Source of the DNA: a virus
Virus record (IMG/VR): IMGVR_UViG_3300040856_001489
Location: 1 to 39,722 of that record
Reading direction: 5' to 3' (one strand)
DNA: 39,722 bases
The notes beneath the pieces were generated by a model. The model was given only the letters and a program-made list of their open reading frames with translations. It did no database searches and had not been told where the DNA came from. The position numbers were made by a program, and so were the translations under genes. Of this stretch, positions 11,651-25,354 are shown piece by piece. Every line of letters starts with the position of its first letter. Position 1 is the first letter of the stretch.

Positions 11651-13969
11651 TTAGTGACCTTCCCTAAAATTATTAGATATTTCGGGAGGTGCTTTTAAAG
11701 TAACACCTTCTAACTTAGTAGTGTTCTCCATTATATCTTTAACAATAGGAGCAAACTCTTCAACGTGATTCTCTTCAATCTCTATAACAAGTTGGTCATG
11801 TATTTGAGCAATAACTTGACCATCCCATCCTCTTTCCTTCAAGGCTCTATTAATCATCAATGCAGACCTATTTACAATAGATGCAGCTAAGGATTGAATT
11901 TGAAAATTGAGGGAGGAATTATAAGCATTCTTTATATCTCTATATAAATTTATAGCCTCTTCATTACCTATCTTCTTCATAAGACCATCCCTAAAATCAT
12001 AATCTAATAATCGGTCTCCATACTTGTCATATACTGATTTACCTCTCCATAAATGTCTTGTTCTTCCCAATACATTTTTAATCATACCAGTCTGCTCAAA
12101 CTCTTTCTTAGACCTTTCAATCCATTCCGCAACACCAGGGAATCCCTCTAAGTAGGCATCTCTTAATGCTTCCCCTTCTTTCTTCTTTATATTAAGACTT
12201 TTTGCTAAAGCAAATCCTGACATACCATAAGCAATACCTAAAGCATATGCCTTTGCCTTTTGTCTTTTCGGGGCATCCACTTTTTTCAAATAATTTTCGG
12301 CTTTCTTGTCAGGAGACACCCCCTCCAATTTCTCGGTGCGTATCGCTACGGTGCTGTAAAAATCGTGACCCTTATTAAATATTTCTTGTAAATTTTTATC
12401 TCTTGAGATACTTGCAAAGATGTGGGGTTCTAATGATTCATAATCTGAATCTATAAACTTATACCCTTTTCTTCTAACGAAGAATTCTCTAATTCTATTG
12501 TTGAACTTTAATACAATAGGATTATCCTCTCCATCTTCTTTAGGTTTTGGCAACTGTTGAAGATCACTACCATATCTTCCTGACACCGTTCCGTGCTGTT
12601 TAAAGTAAGGATAAAATACTCCATCTATATGCTGTTCTAATAGTCTTTCTACATAGGTAGAATTAATCTTAACTAACCTATTGTATATTCTTAATTTTTC
12701 TGCCCACTTATATATTGAGGAAATGCTTTCTATAAAGGTATCATCAAATTGAGGACTTCCTGATGGTGTACTTGATAACGGCTTTAAGTTCATATACTTA
12801 AATGCAATTTCAGATAAGTGCTTCTTGGATTGGATATTTATTAAGTCTCCACCATTTGCTTCTCGCCACAATTCTAAACTTATCTTCATAAGTTCCAGAT
12901 CAGGAATGCCATGTTCTGATGTTGGGTCTTGTAAGAATCTTTTATAAGGAGAATCTTCTAACTTCTCCAATTCTTTCTTAAGGATTCTTGGGTCTCCTTT
13001 AGCATCCAAAGGTAAAGGAAGATTAGCATATTTAGCAAGATACTTAGCATACTTTCCTCGGTTCTTAGGTGGAAATGAAGTAACATAGCATTGCTCAAAT
13101 AGCCAAGTCTTTGTAGTAGGCAAGGATACTAACTCTTCTATAACTTCATCTTTTATAGACTTCATCTCCTCTTCTATTTCTACTTTAGTTGTTTGAAGAA
13201 GTTTTAAATCTAAAGCAATACCTTTTCTTTCCATAGGTATCGTAACTTCTTTGTACACAGGCATTACTTCATCCTCGAAAAAGAACTTTTCTAATCCTTC
13301 TTGATAAATCTTCTTTATGAAATAGTGAGCAACTCTTAAAGTTAAATCAGTATCAGCAGAAGCATACTTAGACAATATCTCAAAGTCTGCTTTGTAGATT
13401 TCAAAGTTTTTCTTGGTTACAGATCCTCCATTCTTTAAAATACTATCTTTTAGTTCTATCTGTTCTTTATTAGCTTCTTCTTCTACATTCAATCCTAATT
13501 CTTTCTGATACATCTGAGCGATAGCCTTTAAAGCAAAAGGCTTTCCAAACATAAATGCACCTTCCTCTTGTACCGTATGCACAGCTAATATAGTTTCAAT
13601 CCATAGTTCAGGAAGTAAATCTATTCCGTAATCATTAAGTATTATCCCAGTATCAAAAGAAGCATTGTGCATAATAAGTTTCTTACTTTGCTTCTTTAAT
13701 TGTAGGAATACATTGTACAACATCTCCCGAGATTTTATATCTTCTATTATGATATCATCTAAGGTATCTGTACTTGGATTATATTTTTTGGTAGGTAGAT
13801 AAAATCCATTTCCAATTTTGGTGCTAAATGAAGCACCAATTATCTTGTCAGTTCTAATGTTTACACCGGTGGTTTCAGTATCTACAGCAACAATGTCAGA
13901 ATTGTTGATACAATCTAATAACTCTAAATAAGTATGGTAGTCTAATATTGTCTTATATACCTTATCCAA
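11651..13969 (-). CDS. DNA polymerase I family (family A) replicative polymerase with 3'-5' exonuclease domain
   Basis: The 772-residue protein has an N-terminal DEDDy proofreading domain: ExoI in VAVDTETTGV (D-x-E), ExoII in IMHNASFDTGI, ExoIII in YASADTDL (YxxxD). The family A polymerase domain follows. TVSGRYGSDLQQLP is the template-binding TGR region and FIDSDYESLEPHIFA is motif A with the catalytic Asp. KRQKAKAYALGIAYGMSG is motif B, with R, K and Y kept but Leu at the position of E. coli Phe762. IAQIHDQLVIEI is motif C (HDQ for HDE). There is no 5' nuclease domain; a separate gene at 20149-21189 supplies that activity. It is the main candidate for the phage replicase. Confidence 0.93.
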   Translation of the reverse strand: MDKVYKTILDYHTYLELLDCINNSDIVAVDTETTGVNIRTDKIIGASFSTKIGNGFYLPTKKYNPSTDTLDDIIIEDIKSREMLYNVFLQLKKQSKKLIMHNASFDTGIILNDYGIDLLPELWIETILAVHTVQEEGAFMFGKPFALKAIAQMYQKELGLNVEEEANKEQIELKDSILKNGGSVTKKNFEIYKADFEILSKYASADTDLTLRVAHYFIKKIYQEGLEKFFFEDEVMPVYKEVTIPMERKGIALDLKLLQTTKVEIEEEMKSIKDEVIEELVSLPTTKTWLFEQCYVTSFPPKNRGKYAKYLAKYANLPLPLDAKGDPRILKKELEKLEDSPYKRFLQDPTSEHGIPDLELMKISLELWREANGGDLINIQSKKHLSEIAFKYMNLKPLSSTPSGSPQFDDTFIESISSIYKWAEKLRIYNRLVKINSTYVERLLEQHIDGVFYPYFKQHGTVSGRYGSDLQQLPKPKEDGEDNPIVLKFNNRIREFFVRRKGYKFIDSDYESLEPHIFASISRDKNLQEIFNKGHDFYSTVAIRTEKLEGVSPDKKAENYLKKVDAPKRQKAKAYALGIAYGMSGFALAKSLNIKKKEGEALRDAYLEGFPGVAEWIERSKKEFEQTGMIKNVLGRTRHLWRGKSVYDKYGDRLLDYDFRDGLMKKIGNEEAINLYRDIKNAYNSSLNFQIQSLAASIVNRSALMINRALKERGWDGQVIAQIHDQLVIEIEENHVEEFAPIVKDIMENTTKLEGVTLKAPPEISNNFREGH

Positions 13970-14977: not shown

Positions 14978-17731
14978 TTATTCACAGCTTACACATTCTA
15001 AAATATTTCTTGAAAACATCTGTGCTGAATTTTGACTAAACTGATAGTACAAAGTTTTAATACCTTCCTCCCAAGCATATAGATATAGTTGATTAATATC
15101 TTTAGCAGGTATTGAAGGGTGTATTTGTAAATTTAAACTTTGAGATTGGTCAATAAACTTCTGTCTCTGAGCAGCTTGTAAAATAATTTCCTTTGGAGAA
15201 ATCTCAACGAAAGTTTTAAATACTTTTTTTGTAGGAAAATCTAAGTGCTGTACAGATCCATCTCTCTTCAATATACTATCCCAAACTTCTTCGGTATCTA
15301 AACCATAGTTTTCTAATTCTACTTTTAAAAAAGGATTCTTATATACAGTCTTTATCTTTGCTAAATCTTTTACAAAGTAATTTGACTTGATAGGCTCAAT
15401 ACCCATAGATACTTGACCTAAAATAAAAGAACTTGATTTTGTAGGAGCAATAGCCATCAAAGTAGAGTTAGCATACCCTTCCCTAAAACATTCGTATTTT
15501 GTAGGCATAGACATATACAAGTCTTGTGAAGCCTTATCTGTACGCTCTTTTAATGTACTGAAAATCTTATGATTGTACTGCTTTGCTTGTAAGGACTCAA
15601 AAGGTATGTTCTTGGACTGAAGTAGTGAGTGATATCCTAAAACTCCAACACCTATTGCTCTATGTTCTCTTGCGAATCTGTGAGCTTTTTTCATTCCTGG
15701 TAAATCCCAAGCCTTTTGTATGAACTCATCCATTACTGCATTTAAAAAATAAACATAAGTTTCTACAGCATCTGTTTTCTCTATCTCATCCCAATGTAAT
15801 AAATTTATAGACCCTATGCAACAAACAAAAGATACATCATCATCTGAAGGGAGCATTATCTCCGAACAATTAAAAGTTTTCAACCCATTTGAAACAAATA
15901 TATGCTCATCAGTATAAACAGTCGGACAGTATACTGGTTCATTTTCTAATTTTTCTATGGATATTACCTTTGCTCTTTTTTTAGAATTATCTCTGTAATC
16001 TCTTGACTCTATAACCACACCTTTTCTTGTTAGGAAAGATGTTTTTTCTTCTATTTTTAAAGCATCATTTTTATTTGAAAATATTAATCGCCAACAATCT
16101 TGAGTATTATAATATTTATGACCACCTTTACCATCAGGCAATAAAGTTTCTCCTGCATGTCTTAATATTTTTATAGAAGAAGAGAGTCCTAAATTTGTAA
16201 ATAATACTTGTAATTCTTCCAAAAAGCCTCTGTTGATACAAGCATAACTTATTTGTAATGGATTACCGTTAGAAGTTCCTAAATTTGCTGTACCATCTGC
16301 ATATAAAAGACCTCTTAAATATGACCATACAGTCTCCTCATTAGCCTCCCATACCCAAGATGGAACATACCCTTTTTCAAAGTTTAATGCTTTTTTTAAA
16401 GTTCTTGAAGTTAATCGTTTCTTTCTAACTGTAGATTGGTTAGTACAGCACTCAACGAACTCAGCTGGTTTTCTTTTTCTTACAGAATTAGTTTTGCCCG
16501 TTTGATTAACTACTTGATAAGTATCACAACCATATTCATAATGTATTTTATTAAATTTTTCTTGGATTTCATCTACTAAATCAAAATCATTTTCCCATAT
16601 ATCAATCATAATCGAATCTTTATGCTGTGTTCCATCTGCTTGATATAATCCTAATAAAAATGCTTCATCTTTCATATCTACTGTTCCGAAGATACCTTTA
16701 TTAGTTTGAGTAGCAACATAATCTCCTATTCTTAAATCTTTAGCCTCTACTCTTACTATATCTTTTTTAGTATCATTTAACACAGCTATTCCGTGATTAG
16801 GACTTACTTTTTGAGACATTCCATTTGAATAAGTTATTTTAAGAACTTCTGAATTATCATCCCTTAATAACATTTTTGATGCTTTAACTTCTTTCTCTCC
16901 ATCAAACAAAATTAGCTCCTCCTCACTTTCATAGAGTTCTTGTACTGTTAAATACCCTTTTGAGGTAACAACCCTTTGATCAGAAGTTAAACATAGATTA
17001 GACGCTTTTATAGTATAAGGTAAATACTTGTAAGGAGTATTAAGGTTAGCTGTAGTTCTGAACATAATATAAGGTAGTCCTACCTCTCCTCTTCTTTGTA
17101 TAATCTTCGCCCAAACTTTTCTCTTATAGGAATCCCCATCTTTCATATGTTGTAACCACTCATCTCCAACAGTAACTCCATACTGTAAATTTTGAATAGG
17201 ATTACCTTCTGTGGCAATATCTAAGAATTCCAAAATATCATCGTGTTCTACGGGTAAGTATACAGCACAAGCACCTCGTCTTGCTTCAGCTTGTTTACAC
17301 ACATCTATAACAGTATCATAAAGTTTAGCATAATGTACTGGTCCATCAGCATTACCGCCAGTTCTTATAGAAGCACCTCTTGGCCGTATATCACCTAAAT
17401 AAGCAGAAGTTCCCCCTCCATATTTTGACATCATTCCAATCTCTTTAGACGTATCTAATATGGAATCCATACTATCATTAACATATGAACCATAACAACT
17501 TATTGGAAGTCCTTTATCTTTAGCAAAGTTAACCCATACAGGGGTAGATAAACTATAAAAACCTCTCGACATATAATCCTCGAACTTTTCAGAAAAGCCT
17601 TGGATACCTAATAATCTTTCAGCAGCATCTGCTATTTCCTTAATTCTTTCTTCAGCAGATTCTTGTATGTATCCTCTTGATAAGAAAGTTCTTGCATCAT
17701 CATTAAGCCAATAATATTTATCGTATGACAT
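14978..17731 (-). CDS. nrdA: Class I ribonucleotide reductase large subunit, interrupted by an intein
   Basis: The precursor has 917 residues, of which 247-621 are intein, leaving a 542-residue enzyme that lacks the N-terminal ATP-cone of E. coli NrdA. Active-site features are C79 (LPISCYGS, first redox Cys), N245-L246 then extein C622 and E624 (the N-x-C-x-E thiyl-radical site), and the second redox Cys in FVCCIGSINL. The tyrosine pair Y895-Y896 (KTLYYQF) serves radical transfer, and the C-terminal CVSC (C913, C916) serves thioredoxin-type re-reduction. It reduces ribonucleotides to deoxyribonucleotides with the product of the adjacent nrdB gene, supplying dNTPs for phage replication. The ATG is 17 bases beyond the nrdB stop. 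Activity depends on intein splicing. Confidence 0.93.
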   Translation of the reverse strand: MSYDKYYWLNDDARTFLSRGYIQESAEERIKEIADAAERLLGIQGFSEKFEDYMSRGFYSLSTPVWVNFAKDKGLPISCYGSYVNDSMDSILDTSKEIGMMSKYGGGTSAYLGDIRPRGASIRTGGNADGPVHYAKLYDTVIDVCKQAEARRGACAVYLPVEHDDILEFLDIATEGNPIQNLQYGVTVGDEWLQHMKDGDSYKRKVWAKIIQRRGEVGLPYIMFRTTANLNTPYKYLPYTIKASNLCLTSDQRVVTSKGYLTVQELYESEEELILFDGEKEVKASKMLLRDDNSEVLKITYSNGMSQKVSPNHGIAVLNDTKKDIVRVEAKDLRIGDYVATQTNKGIFGTVDMKDEAFLLGLYQADGTQHKDSIMIDIWENDFDLVDEIQEKFNKIHYEYGCDTYQVVNQTGKTNSVRKRKPAEFVECCTNQSTVRKKRLTSRTLKKALNFEKGYVPSWVWEANEETVWSYLRGLLYADGTANLGTSNGNPLQISYACINRGFLEELQVLFTNLGLSSSIKILRHAGETLLPDGKGGHKYYNTQDCWRLIFSNKNDALKIEEKTSFLTRKGVVIESRDYRDNSKKRAKVISIEKLENEPVYCPTVYTDEHIFVSNGLKTFNCSEIMLPSDDDVSFVCCIGSINLLHWDEIEKTDAVETYVYFLNAVMDEFIQKAWDLPGMKKAHRFAREHRAIGVGVLGYHSLLQSKNIPFESLQAKQYNHKIFSTLKERTDKASQDLYMSMPTKYECFREGYANSTLMAIAPTKSSSFILGQVSMGIEPIKSNYFVKDLAKIKTVYKNPFLKVELENYGLDTEEVWDSILKRDGSVQHLDFPTKKVFKTFVEISPKEIILQAAQRQKFIDQSQSLNLQIHPSIPAKDINQLYLYAWEEGIKTLYYQFSQNSAQMFSRNILECVSCE
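15869..16993 (-). mobile_element. Intein with LAGLIDADG homing endonuclease inside NrdA
   Basis: The 375-residue insert spans C247 to N621 of the NrdA precursor. Block A is C247 with LTSDQRVVTSKGYLTVQEL. Block B carries SPNHGIAV (H313). Two dodecapeptides, LLGLYQADGT (about 359-368) and LRGLLYADGT (about 472-481), form a two-motif LAGLIDADG homing endonuclease. Block F/G is DEHIFVSNGLKTFN, ending in N621 before extein Cys. The penultimate residue is Phe where His is usual, which is tolerated in some inteins but may slow C-terminal cleavage. The +1 extein residue is the catalytic thiyl-radical cysteine of the enzyme. Other RNR inteins are known at catalytic-site positions. Confidence 0.92.
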
Positions 17732-18784: not shown

Positions 18785-20152
18785 TTATCCATTATTGTTA
18801 ATATTTCTAAATTCTTCTAAAAAAAATCTTTTTTGGTCATCTCGCAAACTTTTCTCTACAGCAGTTAAATCATTTTTAACATTGTAGGCTTCTTTGGAGT
18901 CATCCCTAAACATTTCTATAGTTCCGTTAGATGCATCGATTCGAGCTGGGAATGTAATTCCATCAGGACCAAATCTATTCTTTATGATATGGAATCTACC
19001 AACACCTGCTAACTTATCTTCGGATCTTCTTGAAAGAGACATTATGAAATCTCCAATTGCTATTTTACTGTAATCTTCTGCAATGTGGTCTCCTTCAATT
19101 ATTTCAACATTTAAACTTGACCTATTACTTTGGGAAGCAGTCCATATAGGAATACCATATTCAGCAGATAAACTTCTCAAACCTTCATAAATTTGCTTCA
19201 ATTCAAATCTCAATTCTTTATTGTGACCTTTCAACAAATCAGCATAATCAACAATGACAATATCTGGAATCTTTTCTAAAGCAATGCATCTGTCTAAGTG
19301 AGATTTCAAAGTAAGTACAGAAGCAGACTTAGTAGGATAATTTTCTACTATAAGATTTCCCGGTAGATTCTTTATTTTATTTTCTATATCTTCTTTATGG
19401 AGAGGAAGATTAGAGTTGTCGATTCCAGTTAACACACTATCGTATCTTAATGCAGTATATATCTTATTCAACTCTAAAGTATAGTGTACAACAGTTTTGC
19501 CCTGTTTTAATGCACTTGCGCCAATATATACTAATACCCAAGATTTACCTACTCCGGCAGGAGCAACAATAATTCCTAATTCGCCACTTGACAATCCTCC
19601 TTGCATAGCATCATCTACTGGAATCCATCCTGTTTTAATAGTATTCCTAACTAAGTCTGAATATCTAAGTTCAAAATCATCTTTATATATATGTCCAATA
19701 TCCCTTGTATATCCAGACTTAAGAGCAGTATCTAATGTAGCCTTTATTCCATCATAATCAGACTCATTCAAAAGTTCTACAGATTTAAGAATTGCAGATT
19801 TTATTTCTTGATTTCTACAAAAGTCAATGGTTTGATTTTTAACATATTCCAAATCCTTTGATTCTTTATACGCTTGACTTCTTTTTAGAAAATCAAAAAC
19901 TTCTTGCTTCAATACTTTTTTTGATTCATCTATTCGAGTCATCTCTGTATTAAACACTACCATAGAGGGAGCAATGTTGTACTCTTTATAATGCTCTAAT
20001 GCTGTGTTAATGACCCATTGTGAGGCATTACTAAAGAAATAAGAGGGTTTTAAAATGTCTGAAATTTGAGTTAAAAAAGGAGTATTGTCTGTGATTGCTG
20101 CTACTAATTTTAATTCAAATTCTTGTCCATAACTACTTAATGTTCCTTTCAT
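18785..20152 (-). CDS. DnaB/gp41-like replicative DNA helicase
   Basis: The 455-residue protein has an N-terminal helical domain of DnaB type (residues 1-140) and a RecA-like motor. Walker A is APAGVGKS (197-204), and Walker B is in IVIVDYADLLKG. IWTASQSNRSS carries the sensor glutamine (H3) and GRFHIIKNRFGPDG is the late arginine-finger-like motif. DYSKIAIGDFIMSLSRR matches the H4 region. It should form the hexamer that unwinds DNA at the fork and recruits a primase, which was not found in this window. The start overlaps the exonuclease stop by 4 bases (ATGA), so the two are coupled. Confidence 0.93.
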   Translation of the reverse strand: MKGTLSSYGQEFELKLVAAITDNTPFLTQISDILKPSYFFSNASQWVINTALEHYKEYNIAPSMVVFNTEMTRIDESKKVLKQEVFDFLKRSQAYKESKDLEYVKNQTIDFCRNQEIKSAILKSVELLNESDYDGIKATLDTALKSGYTRDIGHIYKDDFELRYSDLVRNTIKTGWIPVDDAMQGGLSSGELGIIVAPAGVGKSWVLVYIGASALKQGKTVVHYTLELNKIYTALRYDSVLTGIDNSNLPLHKEDIENKIKNLPGNLIVENYPTKSASVLTLKSHLDRCIALEKIPDIVIVDYADLLKGHNKELRFELKQIYEGLRSLSAEYGIPIWTASQSNRSSLNVEIIEGDHIAEDYSKIAIGDFIMSLSRRSEDKLAGVGRFHIIKNRFGPDGITFPARIDASNGTIEMFRDDSKEAYNVKNDLTAVEKSLRDDQKRFFLEEFRNINNNG

Positions 20153-21189
20153 TGTTTAATTTTATTAAAATAACTTGACCAAAATACATAATCAGAATCT
20201 CTTCTGCATAATTCTATGTCATAAAATATCTTCTGTAACTTAAAATAACTAAACTTTGGCAATTCACTATTCGCTAAAGACCTTATATTAGATTTAAGAA
20301 TACCTGAAATATTAGGGTCTATTAGTTGCATTAGCTCGTAATTTCTATAAGCAATATCTTTTTGTTCAATAATGTTTTTAAAAATCTTTGGTTTTGCACC
20401 TTCTTCCAACATTTTTTGACTGTTGTCAAAAATTTCATCTAAGGTAATATATCTTTCTGTATTATCCAAACCAAAATGCTTGTTTAAGCCTTTTTCTCCG
20501 ACTTGTTTAACTCCTGGTATGTTATCTGACCTATCACCAGTGAAACATCTTAAAGTTAAATAATTCAAAGGTAAATAGCCATATACGGAATGCATATCAG
20601 CTTCTGATAATAATATCTTCTTTTCGTAGGAATATACCGATGTATTTCTATCCACCAACTGTAAGAAGTCTTTATCGCTACTCATAATAATCTTCATATC
20701 ATCTTGTGGAATAACCTCCTTACACAATGAAGCTATCACATCATCAGCCTCTATTCCATCCAAAGATATCGTACAAACAGGCATCATACTTAACGCTTGT
20801 AATAGAGTGAGAATCTGTGTTCTTTTAGATGCAGTCTCATCTATCAAACCTTTGGTATCTGCAAACCTATTAAAAGATCCTGCACTTAAAGTCTTCCCCT
20901 TATATTCCTTAAACAGTTTTCTTCTTCTCACACTACCTCCTTTACCATCGAAAACAATGAAAATTTTAGTTGGAGAAAAATCTACTATTGCTTTTTGAAG
21001 TCCTCTAAAGAATCCTAAGACACCCCCAACATGCTCTCCTGCATAATTAATAGCAGGAACGGCTTGAAAGTTCCTTAAGAATACATTCAAGCCATCCACT
21101 ATTAACACTCTGTCTTTATTATCTGAGGAAGAGTCTTTATTAGGGTTGTTGATAAAATTCCTAAAGTCTTCCAAGTAATTGTTACTCAT
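20149..21189 (-). CDS. 5'-3' exonuclease / flap nuclease (PIN-like, T4 RNase H type)
   Basis: The 346-residue protein has the metal-binding acidic cluster of FEN-type nucleases: VLIVDGLNVFLRNF (D32), IFIVFDGKGGSVRRRK, DGIEADDVIASL (E-A-D-D) and IMSSDKDFLQLV (D-x-D). A helix-hairpin-helix region RCFTGDRSDNIPGVKQVGEK follows. Its probable role is removal of RNA primers and flaps during lagging-strand synthesis, replacing the 5' nuclease domain absent from the polymerase at 11651-13969. It overlaps the recombinase gene upstream by 8 bases and the helicase gene downstream by 4. Confidence 0.92.
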   Translation of the reverse strand: MSNNYLEDFRNFINNPNKDSSSDNKDRVLIVDGLNVFLRNFQAVPAINYAGEHVGGVLGFFRGLQKAIVDFSPTKIFIVFDGKGGSVRRRKLFKEYKGKTLSAGSFNRFADTKGLIDETASKRTQILTLLQALSMMPVCTISLDGIEADDVIASLCKEVIPQDDMKIIMSSDKDFLQLVDRNTSVYSYEKKILLSEADMHSVYGYLPLNYLTLRCFTGDRSDNIPGVKQVGEKGLNKHFGLDNTERYITLDEIFDNSQKMLEEGAKPKIFKNIIEQKDIAYRNYELMQLIDPNISGILKSNIRSLANSELPKFSYFKLQKIFYDIELCRRDSDYVFWSSYFNKIKQ

Positions 21190-22330
21190 CTGCTACAGGT
21201 GGTTCTTCATCTATGACAATATCATCAATACCAATATCTTTGTTAATCTTGTACTCAACTATCAAAGCATCGCATATCTGATTATAGATTAAATCTCTAT
21301 ACTCTGGGATAGATACAACTTTTTCGTAGAACTGTTTGGATTGGAACTTAATTTCCTCTTTAACTTCCCCTGTATTAGGGTCTACTACTGAATAAGTGTA
21401 CCAGGCTCCTGCTATACTAACGAGATTCCTCTCCTTCATTACAGTTAACCAAGAACCATAATCATCTATACCAGAGTCAAAATAAATGTCATATTCTATA
21501 CTCCTCAAAGGTGGACCAAGTCTATTCTTAACAACTTCTGCCGAAGTTTTTATACCGATTACACTTTCTAATCCCTCATTCTTGACTTTTATTTTGAACT
21601 TAGATTTTAATCTCAATCTAACTGATGAATGAAATGCTATCGCTTTACCCCCAGATGTTGTATACTGATCCGAATACATAGGAGCATTTAATCTAACCCT
21701 AAGTTGATTTGTTATGATTAAGCAAATCCGTTCCCTCCCCAAATGGTTAGTAATCTTTCTCATAGCCTTTGACAATATCAAAGCCTTAGTTGTAGCATAT
21801 CCATCTTTTTCATAATCAGATGCAGATTCTAATTTGGTACTTGCACCCATTATGGAATCAATGACGATAGTTACTAATCTATCACTATCACTACTTCTAA
21901 CTTTTTGAATTATTCTTTCAACGGCTTCAAAGATATCCTCTACAGTTTCTAAGGGAAGGTATATCATCTTTGTTAAATCTATACCTATTGCACTAAAAAA
22001 CTCCTTACTAACAGCATTCTCTGTATCTATATAGACAGCAAGTCCTCCCTTATCTTGAGTAGATTTTAAAGCATGGGCAGCCAATAATGACTTACCCGAT
22101 GCTTCAAGACCTGCGATTTCAGTTATTCTACCAACAGGGAATCCACCATTTTTTCTATTAGATATAGCGATATCTAACATAGAACTACCGGTAGAAACCC
22201 AATCAGTAATATCTGCAGGAGAAAACTCAGAACCATCTAAAAAATAAGCAACCTTATCCATAGATTTAAATTGCTTGTTGAGTTCTTTCGCTATTTCCAG
22301 CTCAGAACCTTCACTATTTTTTTTAGACAT
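21182..22330 (-). CDS. uvsX: RecA/UvsX-like recombinase
   Basis: The 382-residue protein shows Walker A EIAGLEASGKS (residues 71-81), AVYIDTENAV (the catalytic-Glu segment), and Walker B in LVTIVIDSIMG. LIITNQLRVRL is the sensor strand with Gln, followed by the DNA-binding loop TTSGGKAIAFHSSVRLRLKS. The length is close to T4 UvsX (391) and longer than typical RecA cores; the acidic C-terminus (DIVIDEEPPVADE) is common in RecA-type regulators. It catalyses strand exchange on SSB-coated DNA and, with the adjacent gp32-like SSB, should support recombination-dependent replication. Confidence 0.93.
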   Translation of the reverse strand: MSKKNSEGSELEIAKELNKQFKSMDKVAYFLDGSEFSPADITDWVSTGSSMLDIAISNRKNGGFPVGRITEIAGLEASGKSLLAAHALKSTQDKGGLAVYIDTENAVSKEFFSAIGIDLTKMIYLPLETVEDIFEAVERIIQKVRSSDSDRLVTIVIDSIMGASTKLESASDYEKDGYATTKALILSKAMRKITNHLGRERICLIITNQLRVRLNAPMYSDQYTTSGGKAIAFHSSVRLRLKSKFKIKVKNEGLESVIGIKTSAEVVKNRLGPPLRSIEYDIYFDSGIDDYGSWLTVMKERNLVSIAGAWYTYSVVDPNTGEVKEEIKFQSKQFYEKVVSIPEYRDLIYNQICDALIVEYKINKDIGIDDIVIDEEPPVADE

Positions 22331-22340
22331 ATTCTAAATT

Positions 22341-23129
22341 TTAGCTATTAAACAATGAATCAAAAGAATCCATAGCACTCTTAACGTTGTTAGGAGTGGA
22401 GGACTGCACAGAACTTGGACTTGACGAAGGAGTAGTTGTAGTATCATTAGCAGTAGTAGGTTCACTATTAGAATTCTTTGGAGTCATATACTCCTCAAAA
22501 ATAGAAACAAGTTCCTCCTTAGATGGAGCTTTGAAAATGTTTTCTAACTCAGGAACTTCATCTATTTTAGATAATAATGAAGAATCATCAAAAGCAGGAG
22601 TAGGAAAAGGCTTAACTAAAATGTTAGTTTCAGGATAACCTCCTGGCTTCTTGATATATTCAATAGCAATGTCATGCCCCTTCTCCAAGTCAGAAATATC
22701 TCCGTAATCTCCTGAAGAAAGAAACTTGGCAATTTTGTGATAAACATTTTCAGTAAATCCATAGAACCTAACTCCTTTAGACTCTTCACCTCTAACAATG
22801 ATAGGTGCAAATACTCTCATCTTAGGCTCTAAGTTCTTTCCAAGTTTCCACTTTTCAGTATCACCAGAGTTTTGCAACTTTCGAGCATACTCTAAAATGG
22901 GATCATCATTACCAAAAGTAGCAGGAGATACAATAGGTTTTTGAGAAATGTTGTAATGGAATAGGAATCTTCTAAAAGAATCTGCCCTATCATGTGCATA
23001 AGGAACAATTCTAATTACATGTTCTCCTGTCGGTTTCCAAAACAAATCATCATTTCCACCACCCTTACTGCGAGTCTTCTTGTTTAAACGCTCTAAATCT
23101 GCTTTAATAGCATCGAAATTGATACTCAT
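22341..23129 (-). CDS. gp32-like single-stranded DNA-binding protein lacking zinc ligands
   Basis: The 262-residue protein resembles T4 gp32 in layout: a basic N-terminal cooperativity segment (LERLNKKTRSK, residues 12-22), then an OB-type core with HVIRIVPYAHD, FRRFLFHYN, and VRFYGFTENVYHKIAKFL. A Ser/Thr-rich linker (about 212-250) leads to a short acidic-aromatic tail MDSFDSLFNS for partner binding. T4 gp32 holds zinc through one His and three Cys. The matching region here (PIVSPATFGNDDPILEYARK) has no Cys, and the whole protein contains none, so the zinc finger is lost. It lies directly before uvsX. Confidence 0.9.
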   Translation of the reverse strand: MSINFDAIKADLERLNKKTRSKGGGNDDLFWKPTGEHVIRIVPYAHDRADSFRRFLFHYNISQKPIVSPATFGNDDPILEYARKLQNSGDTEKWKLGKNLEPKMRVFAPIIVRGEESKGVRFYGFTENVYHKIAKFLSSGDYGDISDLEKGHDIAIEYIKKPGGYPETNILVKPFPTPAFDDSSLLSKIDEVPELENIFKAPSKEELVSIFEEYMTPKNSNSEPTTANDTTTTPSSSPSSVQSSTPNNVKSAMDSFDSLFNS

Positions 23130-23157: not shown

Positions 23158-23553
23158 TTAAAAATATATTGCTTTTCTAAATTCTAAGCCTAATAAAACT
23201 AAATCATTATCCTTTATTATCAGAAGTTGATCTGAATAAGATTCCCAATCAACTTGATAACTTTTGTCTAAGATACCATTATTTATTCGTACTATCAAAG
23301 AATTTAAAGCATTAATAGTGTAGATGGTATTAGATTGTTTCTTTCTATGTACTAATATGGTATTTTTTGCCAATCCCTCCCGCAAATTTTCTTCTATATT
23401 ATATACTAATATAAGATTGTTGGGATTGTCCACCTCTGAATAAAGATAAATTTTATTATTTGATATCTTAAAGTAAGTGTTCAAATAGTCGATGGTTAAA
23501 CTCAAAGAGTCTTTAACCGCAAACGTACATAATAGTTGTCTTTTCATAGTCAT
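23158..23553 (-). CDS. Protein of unknown function in the replication block
   Basis: The 131-residue protein starts MTMKRQLLCTFAVKD and has a strand-rich N-terminal half and a C-terminal part TIYTINALNSLIVRINNG followed by VDWESYSDQLLIIKD. There is no membrane segment, cysteine pair or nucleotide-binding motif. It lies between the short polymerase-like gene and the SSB gene with a 10-base gap upstream. Position suggests a small replication or translation-control factor, but no family was recognised. The start could be the third codon, which is also ATG. Confidence 0.6.
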   Translation of the reverse strand: MTMKRQLLCTFAVKDSLSLTIDYLNTYFKISNNKIYLYSEVDNPNNLILVYNIEENLREGLAKNTILVHRKKQSNTIYTINALNSLIVRINNGILDKSYQVDWESYSDQLLIIKDNDLVLLGLEFRKAIYF

Positions 23554-23563
23554 TAGTTTACTG

Positions 23564-24799
23564 TCAGTCTATACTGACTCTCCTCATTTCTTTATAGTTT
23601 TTTCCTAAAGATATTTTTGATTTAATTAATTTGTTTTTTATATCAATTAATAACTGCTTTCCATCCAAAGGATTAAAATCAATAAGTATGGAATCATAAG
23701 TATACAATATTACTTTAGACTGTTTATCCTTTAGTAATTCATTTATATCATATATAAATAGCATAGAAAATTCTGTTTCTATCATCTGAATGTAATAACT
23801 AAAGAATTTTGATTTAGTGCAATCATCAGTAACTACTAATCTTCTTTTACTTATAGGACTTTCAATATAAGAATTTTCTAAATACTTATTCCAAATTTTT
23901 TCCTTAAAGTCATTAACTCTATCAAAGAATTCATTACTATATTTTGAATTTTCTATATCCTTATATAATAATGTAAAACTAATCTTCTTACTCTCTGTAT
24001 ACTCTTCTTCAGATATAGAATCCTTTCCAAAATAAAGTTTGGCAAATTCAGTATGAATAGAATCTAAACCATCAAAATCATAACCAATCATCTTACCTAT
24101 CAATCTTAAATGGTAAGAATCAAAATCGTATTCAACTAAATATCCATTATCATATCTACTAATAAAACTCTCTCTACTTGAATCTTTTTTACTAAGAGCA
24201 GAAAAATTAATATTATCAAAAGTATTGGAAGGTCTACCTGTAGAGGTATGAATATTGTAATAACTTCTTACTATATTAGTAACATATTTTTTATTAAAAT
24301 TGTTATTAAAAGTATTTAGATTAATACATAATCCATTTGATTCTATAGTCTTTATATTAGGAAACACATACTTTTTATAGAACTCACTATCACTTGATAT
24401 ACTAAAACCTTCATACGCATTTAGGAAATTCAGTATAAACTTCTCGCAAGAATTTTTTAATATATTAAAAGGTATATACCTTAGATAATCTGCTATTCTA
24501 TAAAAATTTTTAAAATTATTAAAGAATACGGAACTCTTATCAAAGGATATATTTCTAAGCCAACATTCTGTATCTAAGTCGTAGGAATCATTATTATCAT
24601 AGACTCTATCATACAATCTCTTATTAAAAACTATAGTAGTTCCTATAAAATGTTTAGGCAAAGAAACATTATCTATATCTACTAAATTAATTGGATAGTG
24701 GTCAAATTTTTTAGAAAAAGTATCATACACAGACATAAATGATATGTCTGAATAAACATAGTGAGAACCACTATTTGGTATGCATAAAACTATTTTCAT
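23564..24799 (-). CDS. Short exonuclease-less family A DNA polymerase-like protein
   Basis: The 411-residue protein has a complete but divergent family A polymerase signature. HTSTGRP has T187-G188-R189 followed by a FDNINFSAL segment that matches 'NLQNIP'. Motif A is EYDFDSYHLRLIG (catalytic D225; His230 at the steric-gate Glu710 position). Motif B is SKKISFTLLYK (K271, F275, Y279; Tyr267 where Arg754 is usual). YYIQMIE carries Q338 (E. coli Gln849) and motif C is LYTYDSILI (D369; Ser replaces the Glu). The first 150 residues show no exonuclease DxE motif. Both catalytic aspartates are kept, so activity is plausible. It is a second, distinct polymerase besides the one at 11651-13969 and sits first behind a Bacteroidota-type promoter. 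Confidence 0.75.
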   Translation of the reverse strand: MKIVLCIPNSGSHYVYSDISFMSVYDTFSKKFDHYPINLVDIDNVSLPKHFIGTTIVFNKRLYDRVYDNNDSYDLDTECWLRNISFDKSSVFFNNFKNFYRIADYLRYIPFNILKNSCEKFILNFLNAYEGFSISSDSEFYKKYVFPNIKTIESNGLCINLNTFNNNFNKKYVTNIVRSYYNIHTSTGRPSNTFDNINFSALSKKDSSRESFISRYDNGYLVEYDFDSYHLRLIGKMIGYDFDGLDSIHTEFAKLYFGKDSISEEEYTESKKISFTLLYKDIENSKYSNEFFDRVNDFKEKIWNKYLENSYIESPISKRRLVVTDDCTKSKFFSYYIQMIETEFSMLFIYDINELLKDKQSKVILYTYDSILIDFNPLDGKQLLIDIKNKLIKSKISLGKNYKEMRRVSID

Positions 24800-24819: not shown

Positions 24820-24851
24820 CAAATGTAAGTAATTATCTGTAGAATTCCAAA
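24820..24851 (-). promoter_or_regulatory. Bacteroidota-type promoter (TTTG, 20-base spacer, TACATTTG)
   Basis: On the coding strand TTTG (24851-24848) is followed after 20 bases by TACATTTG (24827-24820), matching the Bacteroidota -33/-7 consensus TTTG and TAnnTTTG. The -7 box ends 21 bases before the ATG at 24799. The -33 box lies in the last codons of the upstream gene. It would let the host's main sigma factor start the replication block independently of the structural genes. Confidence 0.6.
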
Positions 24852-25354
24852 GGATTTCTTAAATAATTTTTAAGACCACTAAACTCTGATTCAGATTGCT
24901 CTATTTGTCGTATATTAAAATTACTAACATAATTTCTATTCCCTGAAATATACCACTCTATCGAAACCGTTTTATATACTTTAGAACTAATAAAATTTTT
25001 TGAATTGTTAGGTTTAACCTTAGAAAACTGATTTTGGTCTATTTCCATTATGGTACTTAATGGAGAACTTCTTTTCTGTATAAAATATCTTTTTATAAAT
25101 CCTACAGTATAATCATAGTCAGATATCGTAGGTACAAAAGGTTTAGGAGACATATTACCACCTTTGACTTTATTTCTTAATCTTACTGTTTCAGTATTAA
25201 AAGTATGTCTTGGAACTAATATCTGATTAATATTAGACTGCTCATTATAAACATAGGCTACATTAGTTGTTGAGTCTATATAATAGAAGCCTCTATACTC
25301 TAAACCATCTAAAGTATAAAATTCCAATCCATTAGTTTTTCTTACGTTTTTCAT
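24833..25354 (-). CDS. Unidentified protein at the end of the tail block
   Basis: The 173-residue protein has a strand-rich start (FYTLDGLEYRGFYYIDSTTN), a middle part with VPRHTFNTETVRLRNK and SDYDYTVGFIKRYFIQKRSS, and a tail FSGLKNYLRNPLEFYR. It is basic, soluble and without signal peptide. It follows the hub-like gene with a 4-base gap and has the look of a small virion or baseplate accessory protein. The family is not recognised and the structural role is inferred from position only. Confidence 0.55.
   Translation of the reverse strand: MKNVRKTNGLEFYTLDGLEYRGFYYIDSTTNVAYVYNEQSNINQILVPRHTFNTETVRLRNKVKGGNMSPKPFVPTISDYDYTVGFIKRYFIQKRSSPLSTIMEIDQNQFSKVKPNNSKNFISSKVYKTVSIEWYISGNRNYVSNFNIRQIEQSESEFSGLKNYLRNPLEFYR

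Follow-up and report, generated by a model that had tools for sequence, protein, structure and literature searches.

The window, that is, the whole stretch of DNA analysed here, is a 39.7-kb virus fragment in which an ATG-initiated open reading frame of 411 aa occupies positions 23564-24799. It had been described in a first-pass annotation as a second, short family A polymerase, and the frame is present as described, with its strand corrected to minus. The gene lies in a co-directional run that leads from tail-side genes through a 173-aa gene, the short polymerase, a 131-aa gene, a gp32-type single-strand DNA-binding protein (SSB), a UvsX/RecA recombinase, a FEN-type 5'-3' exonuclease and a DnaB helicase to a ribonucleotide reductase. 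Gene calls, Pfam matches and comparison of loci agree with the earlier placement between tail-type genes and the SSB gene. The features of the region and of the main polymerase gene are as follows.

24833-25354, minus strand: conserved 173-aa gene at the end of the tail-side cluster, upstream of the short polymerase, function unassigned (cluster 3; 68 of 85 loci)
24820-24851, minus strand: candidate Bacteroidota-type promoter TTTG-N20-TACATTTG, 20 bp before the short polymerase gene (sequence)
23564-24799, minus strand: divPolA1-type (thumbless, exonuclease-dead) family A DNA polymerase, 411 aa (open reading frame, Pfam, AlphaFold2, VIA-align, HHalign)
23158-23553, minus strand: 131-aa partner candidate with an HRKKxTNTLYTINALN motif (AlphaFold2 pLDDT 94.5)
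22341-23129, minus strand: gp32-type single-strand DNA-binding protein (Pfam gp32, 1.2e-8)
21182-22330, minus strand: UvsX/RecA recombinase (Pfam RecA, 2.9e-45; PHROG UvsX, 1.5e-67)
20149-21189, minus strand: FEN-type 5'-3' exonuclease (Pfam 5_3_exonuc_N, 2e-28)
18785-20152, minus strand: DnaB-like replicative helicase (PHROG, 6e-70)
11651-13969, minus strand: main ('regular') proofreading family A polymerase, 772 aa, TTG start (Pfam DNA_pol_A, 5.6e-64; exo1, 1.3e-11)

A profile search against family A polymerases, the check proposed with the annotation, was carried out with Pfam. DNA_pol_A matched the short polymerase with an E-value of 1.9e-6 at 27.5 bits, which is under the curated cut-off of 34.3 bits; several relatives score above that cut-off, and 50 of 57 family members were matched (best E-value, 2.4e-14). 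A profile built from the family retrieved the Klenow fragment and Bst Pol I from the PDB (E 4e-8), and HHalign aligned residues 9-406 with an E. coli-led PolA alignment (E 3.7e-17). Comparison with an 82%-identical relative gave a dN of 0.106 and a dS of 0.768, indicating purifying selection. The fold, motifs A, B and C, both aspartates and the motif B lysine are those of DNA polymerase family A (PF00476). The active 3'-5' exonuclease or full thumb of a canonical proofreading or replicative PolA is absent, and no match to the zinc-ribbon and TOPRIM domains of a DnaG-type primase was found by Pfam within the protein. The short polymerase is a real, conserved and stripped-down family A polymerase, far beyond chance.

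An AlphaFold2 model built with 54 homologues (pLDDT 93.3, pTM 0.90) has DNA polymerases as its top structural matches in both Foldseek, where Klenow ranked first (E 2.9e-16), and VIA-align, where rows less than 1 Z apart were counted as tied. In the latter, model residues 1-406 were superposed on Bst (Bacillus) Pol I with a Z of 26.8 over 390 residues at an rmsd of 3.8. The palm is present in the model, its motifs superpose on those of Pol I, and the two aspartates lie in one site, so that neither a missing palm nor scattered aspartates, the outcomes named as damaging to the annotation, was encountered. The residues singled out at that time (D225, H230, Y267, K271, F275, Y279, Q338, D369 and S370) all stand at their places and are paired with Pol I residues by HHalign. 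The parts of the protein, with their E. coli Pol I counterparts, are listed below.

24476-24799, minus strand: vestigial 3'-5' exonuclease fold, residues 1-108, catalytic carboxylates lost (structure match, HHalign, family alignment)
24296-24469, minus strand: helices leading to the missing thumb, residues 111-168, with an IExNG motif at 152-156 (HHalign, spacing in relatives)
24230-24241, minus strand: TGRP motif, residues 187-190; R189 corresponds to R668
24104-24127, minus strand: motif A, residues 225-232, DFDSYHLR; D225 pairs with D705 and H230 with the steric-gate E710
23960-24001, minus strand: motif B (O helix), residues 267-280; Y267 pairs with R754, K271 with K758, F275 with F762 and Y279 with Y766
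23777-23788, minus strand: QxxE, residues 338-341; Q338 pairs with Q849
23690-23698, minus strand: motif C, residues 368-370, YDS; Y368 pairs with H881, D369 with D882 and S370 with E883

The statement that the protein has no exonuclease domain did not hold. Both VIA-align and HHalign place residues 1 to about 108 on the Pol I exonuclease domain, the former matching model residue 1 to Bst residue 315 and the latter pairing residue 9 onward with E. coli residue 358 onward. Among 57 family members, no conserved Asp or Glu was found in residues 1-108, a stretch in which residue-level alignment is of low confidence; the domain is called vestigial because no acidic residue is conserved there. The largest change, which had been overlooked, lies further on. 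HHalign opens one large gap of about 84 residues after residue 165, opposite E. coli residues ~553-636, which form the thumb, and the spacing from IExNG to TGR is about 34 residues here and 22-40 in relatives, compared with about 122 in Klenow. The helices of the thumb are missing, and the protein is correctly described as having a dead exonuclease domain and no thumb.

Next, we considered how constant the altered active-site residues are. The first family scan of IMG/VR relied on motif A and motif C patterns and yielded at least 587 relatives in viral metagenomes. As those patterns include the residues in question, invariance was re-tested on loci fetched through the 131-aa neighbour gene only. 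This partner-selected set comprised 73 loci, 55 with the polymerase and 18 without it; the latter are regarded as cut short because their upstream sequence amounts to at most 2.35 kb. Of the 55 polymerases, 31 match neither scan pattern. In 50 non-redundant rows, the window's own included, the gate position was His in all 49 that could be read, Tyr368, Asp369, Gln338 and Glu341 were present in every row, position 370 was always Ser or Ala, and Lys271 was found in 48. Glu341 is peculiar to the family. D225 and H230 occur in 72/72 members of the first set, and T187 and R189 in 72/72 of the first set and 48/48 of the partner-selected one. D225, D369, K271, R189 and Q338 are invariant or nearly so down to about 25-30% identity.

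Three replacements had been reported in the annotation, and they differ in weight. The replacement of the steric-gate Glu by His230 is invariant in the family, a far stronger result than could be known from one sequence. Tyr267 in place of the motif B Arg is present in the window but not universal, with 35 Tyr and 8 Arg among the 50 rows. Ser for Glu in motif C is likewise present yet not special: SPO1-like DNA polymerases read HDS, and we therefore dropped it as a sign of an RNA polymerase. As these polymerases keep the gate Glu in spite of their HDS, only the gate His, the motif C Tyr and the loss of the thumb are distinctive of the family.

The surroundings of the gene are also conserved. 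Among 85 loci, the genes found downstream of the short polymerase, nearly always on the same strand, are those for the 131-aa protein (76 loci), SSB (70), UvsX (63), the 5'-3' exonuclease (50) and DnaB (40). Eight of the nine loci lacking the 131-aa gene end within 2.3 kb; locus L089 is the sole one with about 10 kb downstream and no detectable copy. In 37 of the 76 loci, the 131-aa gene is separated from the short polymerase by a variable gene of ~360-710 aa, which is absent from the window (for example L014:6665-8014, L023:5850-7838, L042:10810-12234, L040:2279-4138 and L061:7258-8607). These variable genes share about 45 N-terminal residues (EWxYRLPxGYP...) on unrelated bodies, some nuclease-like by eye (HNH- or PD-(D/E)XK-like), and gave no Pfam matches. 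The 131-aa family is large (at least 590 matches) and apparently undescribed, and its window member has no sequence match in Pfam, PHROG or the PDB. Fold searches gave weak ferredoxin/ACT-like or papillomavirus-type origin-binding-domain-like matches, which at a Z of 6.5 or less are not interpretable.

The host-type promoter that had been proposed fared less clearly. The TTTG-N20 element exists, and TAnnTTTG is kept upstream of the short polymerase in the four closest loci (L004, L005, L006 and L012) and occurs in 13 of 79 loci, compared with 5% of random windows. However, the frequency of Bacteroidota-type promoter-like sites in the window as a whole is about that of chance, with 3 found and 1.75 expected.

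A full proofreading PolA had been noted 10 kb away, and the 11651-13969 gene indeed carries DTE, HNxxxD and YxxxD exonuclease motifs; its product is 53% identical to that of immuto gene 71. It has Leu at the Pol I Phe762 position (RQKAKAYALGIAYG) and HDQ as motif C, where the short polymerase has Phe and YDS. BLAST found no similarity between the two PolA proteins of the window, and a tree separates them by a branch with full support (100/100); on both grounds, the idea that the short polymerase arose recently by duplication of this PolA is rejected. The ribonucleotide reductase large subunit (14978-17731) holds a LAGLIDADG intein (Pfam 1e-12 and 3e-11), and its 569-aa immuto homologue is apparently without one.

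A separate main polymerase is encoded in every genome above 50 kb of the first set. This regular enzyme is a full PolA in the window and in immuto and a PolB in Mel-JY01, LR756508 and nine contigs above 50 kb, LR756508 having a family C polymerase as well; of 20 contigs from the partner-selected set, mostly short fragments, 6 gave a PolB. The short polymerase stays the same whether its companion is PolA, PolB or, as published (PMC11348598), PolC. Most of the large genomes, namely immuto, LR756508, Mel-JY01 and three large contigs, also encode a DnaG/gp61-type primase. The DnaG query had no match in G003 (178 kb) or in the fragments, which divergence or incompleteness may explain. A role as the sole primase of the phage is made unlikely by the DnaG of immuto and five other genomes. 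Because a main polymerase and DnaG coexist with it, the short polymerase comes on top of these enzymes and is not the sole polymerase or the sole primase.

The window gene belongs to a family that has already been published. Yutin et al. 2024 (PMC11348598) described divPolA1 from 14 phages, with Flavobacterium phage immuto as the type phage, as having a truncated thumb and an inactivated exonuclease and as accompanied by a regular polymerase, which is of family A, B or C. They proposed a role in replication; in the literature searched, the name occurs only there and in the preprint. The immuto gene-1 protein is 35% identical to the short polymerase over 299 aa (E 1.4e-50), and homology, palm residues, truncated thumb, inactivated exonuclease, regular polymerase and downstream replication genes are all found in the window. 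Three points, on which the text of Yutin et al. (PMC11348598) is silent, are new here: 1) the gate His is invariant; 2) the neighbouring 131-aa gene is nearly constant; and 3) the family is widely spread in viral metagenomes. The invariant altered residue, the near-constant neighbour and the wide spread speak for a distinct job. A search of cellular genomes gave only four contigs, all in metagenome-assembled genomes and possibly phage.

What this job might be can be weighed from the features above. The suggestion of a specialised polymerase survives in its main part: the enzyme is distinct, coexists with a main polymerase, is not a recent duplicate, and by the superposition of its palm is probably active, whereas two of the three altered residues used to argue for it are weak arguments. 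With a probability that we put slightly above even, the short polymerase is a non-proofreading accessory enzyme for short-patch synthesis within a recombination-replication module. This divPolA1-type enzyme, a family A palm and fingers stripped of proofreading and of most of the thumb, would assist the main polymerase by filling gaps, extending recombination intermediates or bypassing obstacles; SSB, the UvsX recombinase, the FEN-type exonuclease, the DnaB helicase and the small downstream protein would be its working partners. We infer activity because the catalytic residues are conserved and the gene is under purifying selection. As thumb and proofreading are absent, distributive (low-processivity) and error-prone synthesis would be expected by analogy with Klenow thumb mutants; trimming of the tip of the Klenow thumb reportedly lowers DNA affinity, processivity and frameshift fidelity. 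Short patches as the DNA substrate would fit a gene that keeps its position next to those for SSB, recombinase, FEN and helicase. Against this reading, the gate His and the Arg-to-Tyr change could impair dNTP use, and the neighbourhood is a general replication module in which repair is not singled out.

Ribonucleotide use, in which the gate His admits rNTPs and the enzyme, lacking a thumb, synthesises or elongates primers of RNA or of mixed composition in a primase- or PrimPol-like manner, is unlikely. The gate Glu is replaced in every member examined, and single-subunit RNA polymerases of the same superfamily likewise lack this Glu and have Asp-Ser in motif C; archaeo-eukaryotic primases, too, are without a canonical thumb. 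However, a bulky His could still exclude rNTPs, Asp-Ser is shared with the SPO1-like DNA polymerases, and the six genomes named above already have a DnaG/gp61-type primase. It is similarly improbable that the short enzyme acts as the main polymerase at the fork, with the exchangeable regular polymerases in an auxiliary role, as hinted by the observation that divPolA1 sits with replication genes and regular polymerases do not (Yutin et al., PMC11348598). Its constant position by SSB, UvsX and DnaB, next to a regular polymerase whose family differs between genomes, would suit such a role; against it, the enzyme has no proofreading and almost no thumb, whereas the regular PolA of the window keeps all exonuclease motifs and its motif A, B and C residues.

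A polymerase specialised in lesion bypass, as a family A equivalent of the Y-family enzymes, would be a narrower form of the accessory short-patch reading and has only a slim chance of being correct. Lost proofreading, reduced thumb and fingers, and the adjoining SSB and recombinase would all suit it, but short-patch gap filling fits the same features, and no damage-response signal was found. Quite improbable is a two-protein primer-making or repriming polymerase, a family A analogue of PrimPol, composed of a widespread thumbless enzyme that would use ribonucleotides through its invariant gate His and of an obligate 131-aa partner. A non-catalytic scaffold that only binds primer-template or replisome is the least credible, since the loss of the thumb and three changed active-site positions are set against aspartates, motif B Lys/Phe/Tyr, R189 and Q338 that are conserved over hundreds of millions of bases down to ~25-30% identity, which is not expected of a dead enzyme across divergent phage sequence.

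Two unrelated polymerases of the same family in one phage were unexpected. Hundreds of large phages retain the short one among the same neighbours even as their main polymerase is repeatedly exchanged, and it must therefore do something that the main enzyme cannot. The family offers a natural test of how a family A polymerase can function when both the thumb and the gate glutamate are missing, and it draws attention to the uncharacterised 131-aa partner gene.

Compared with known systems, the short polymerase is set apart from the single-subunit (T7-type) RNA polymerases, which have Gly at the gate where all family members examined have His, and it has no promoter-binding domain. Outside the family, the highest-ranking BLAST matches (E 1e-6 to 1e-3) are PolA proteins of the SPO1/Twort type (Herelleviridae), which share Asp-Ser in motif C; they differ in being full length and in keeping the gate Glu. 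Staphylococcus phage Quidividi has a similar order of polA, a small gene, an SSB-like gene and RecA, in which the small gene beside the Herelleviridae PolA has no detectable relation to the 131-aa partner. The Pol I large fragments (Klenow, Bst and Taq) share the palm, the O-helix motif, the TGR motif and the Q849 equivalent, and Bst and Taq likewise carry an inactive exonuclease domain; in contrast to them, the short polymerase has no thumb helices, His for the gate Glu, and Tyr-Asp-Ser/Ala for His-Asp-Glu in motif C. The divPolA2 of barbaviruses (PMC11348598) is also a divergent extra PolA beside a main PolB, without an ordinary thumb or proofreading; by its description, from which alone it is set apart here, it differs in that its N terminus forms a novel globular domain and its neighbourhood varies. 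The divPolA1 of immuto, at 441 aa against 411 aa in the window, has the same downstream order of small protein, SSB, RecA, 5'-3' exonuclease and DnaB, and the same regular PolA alongside.
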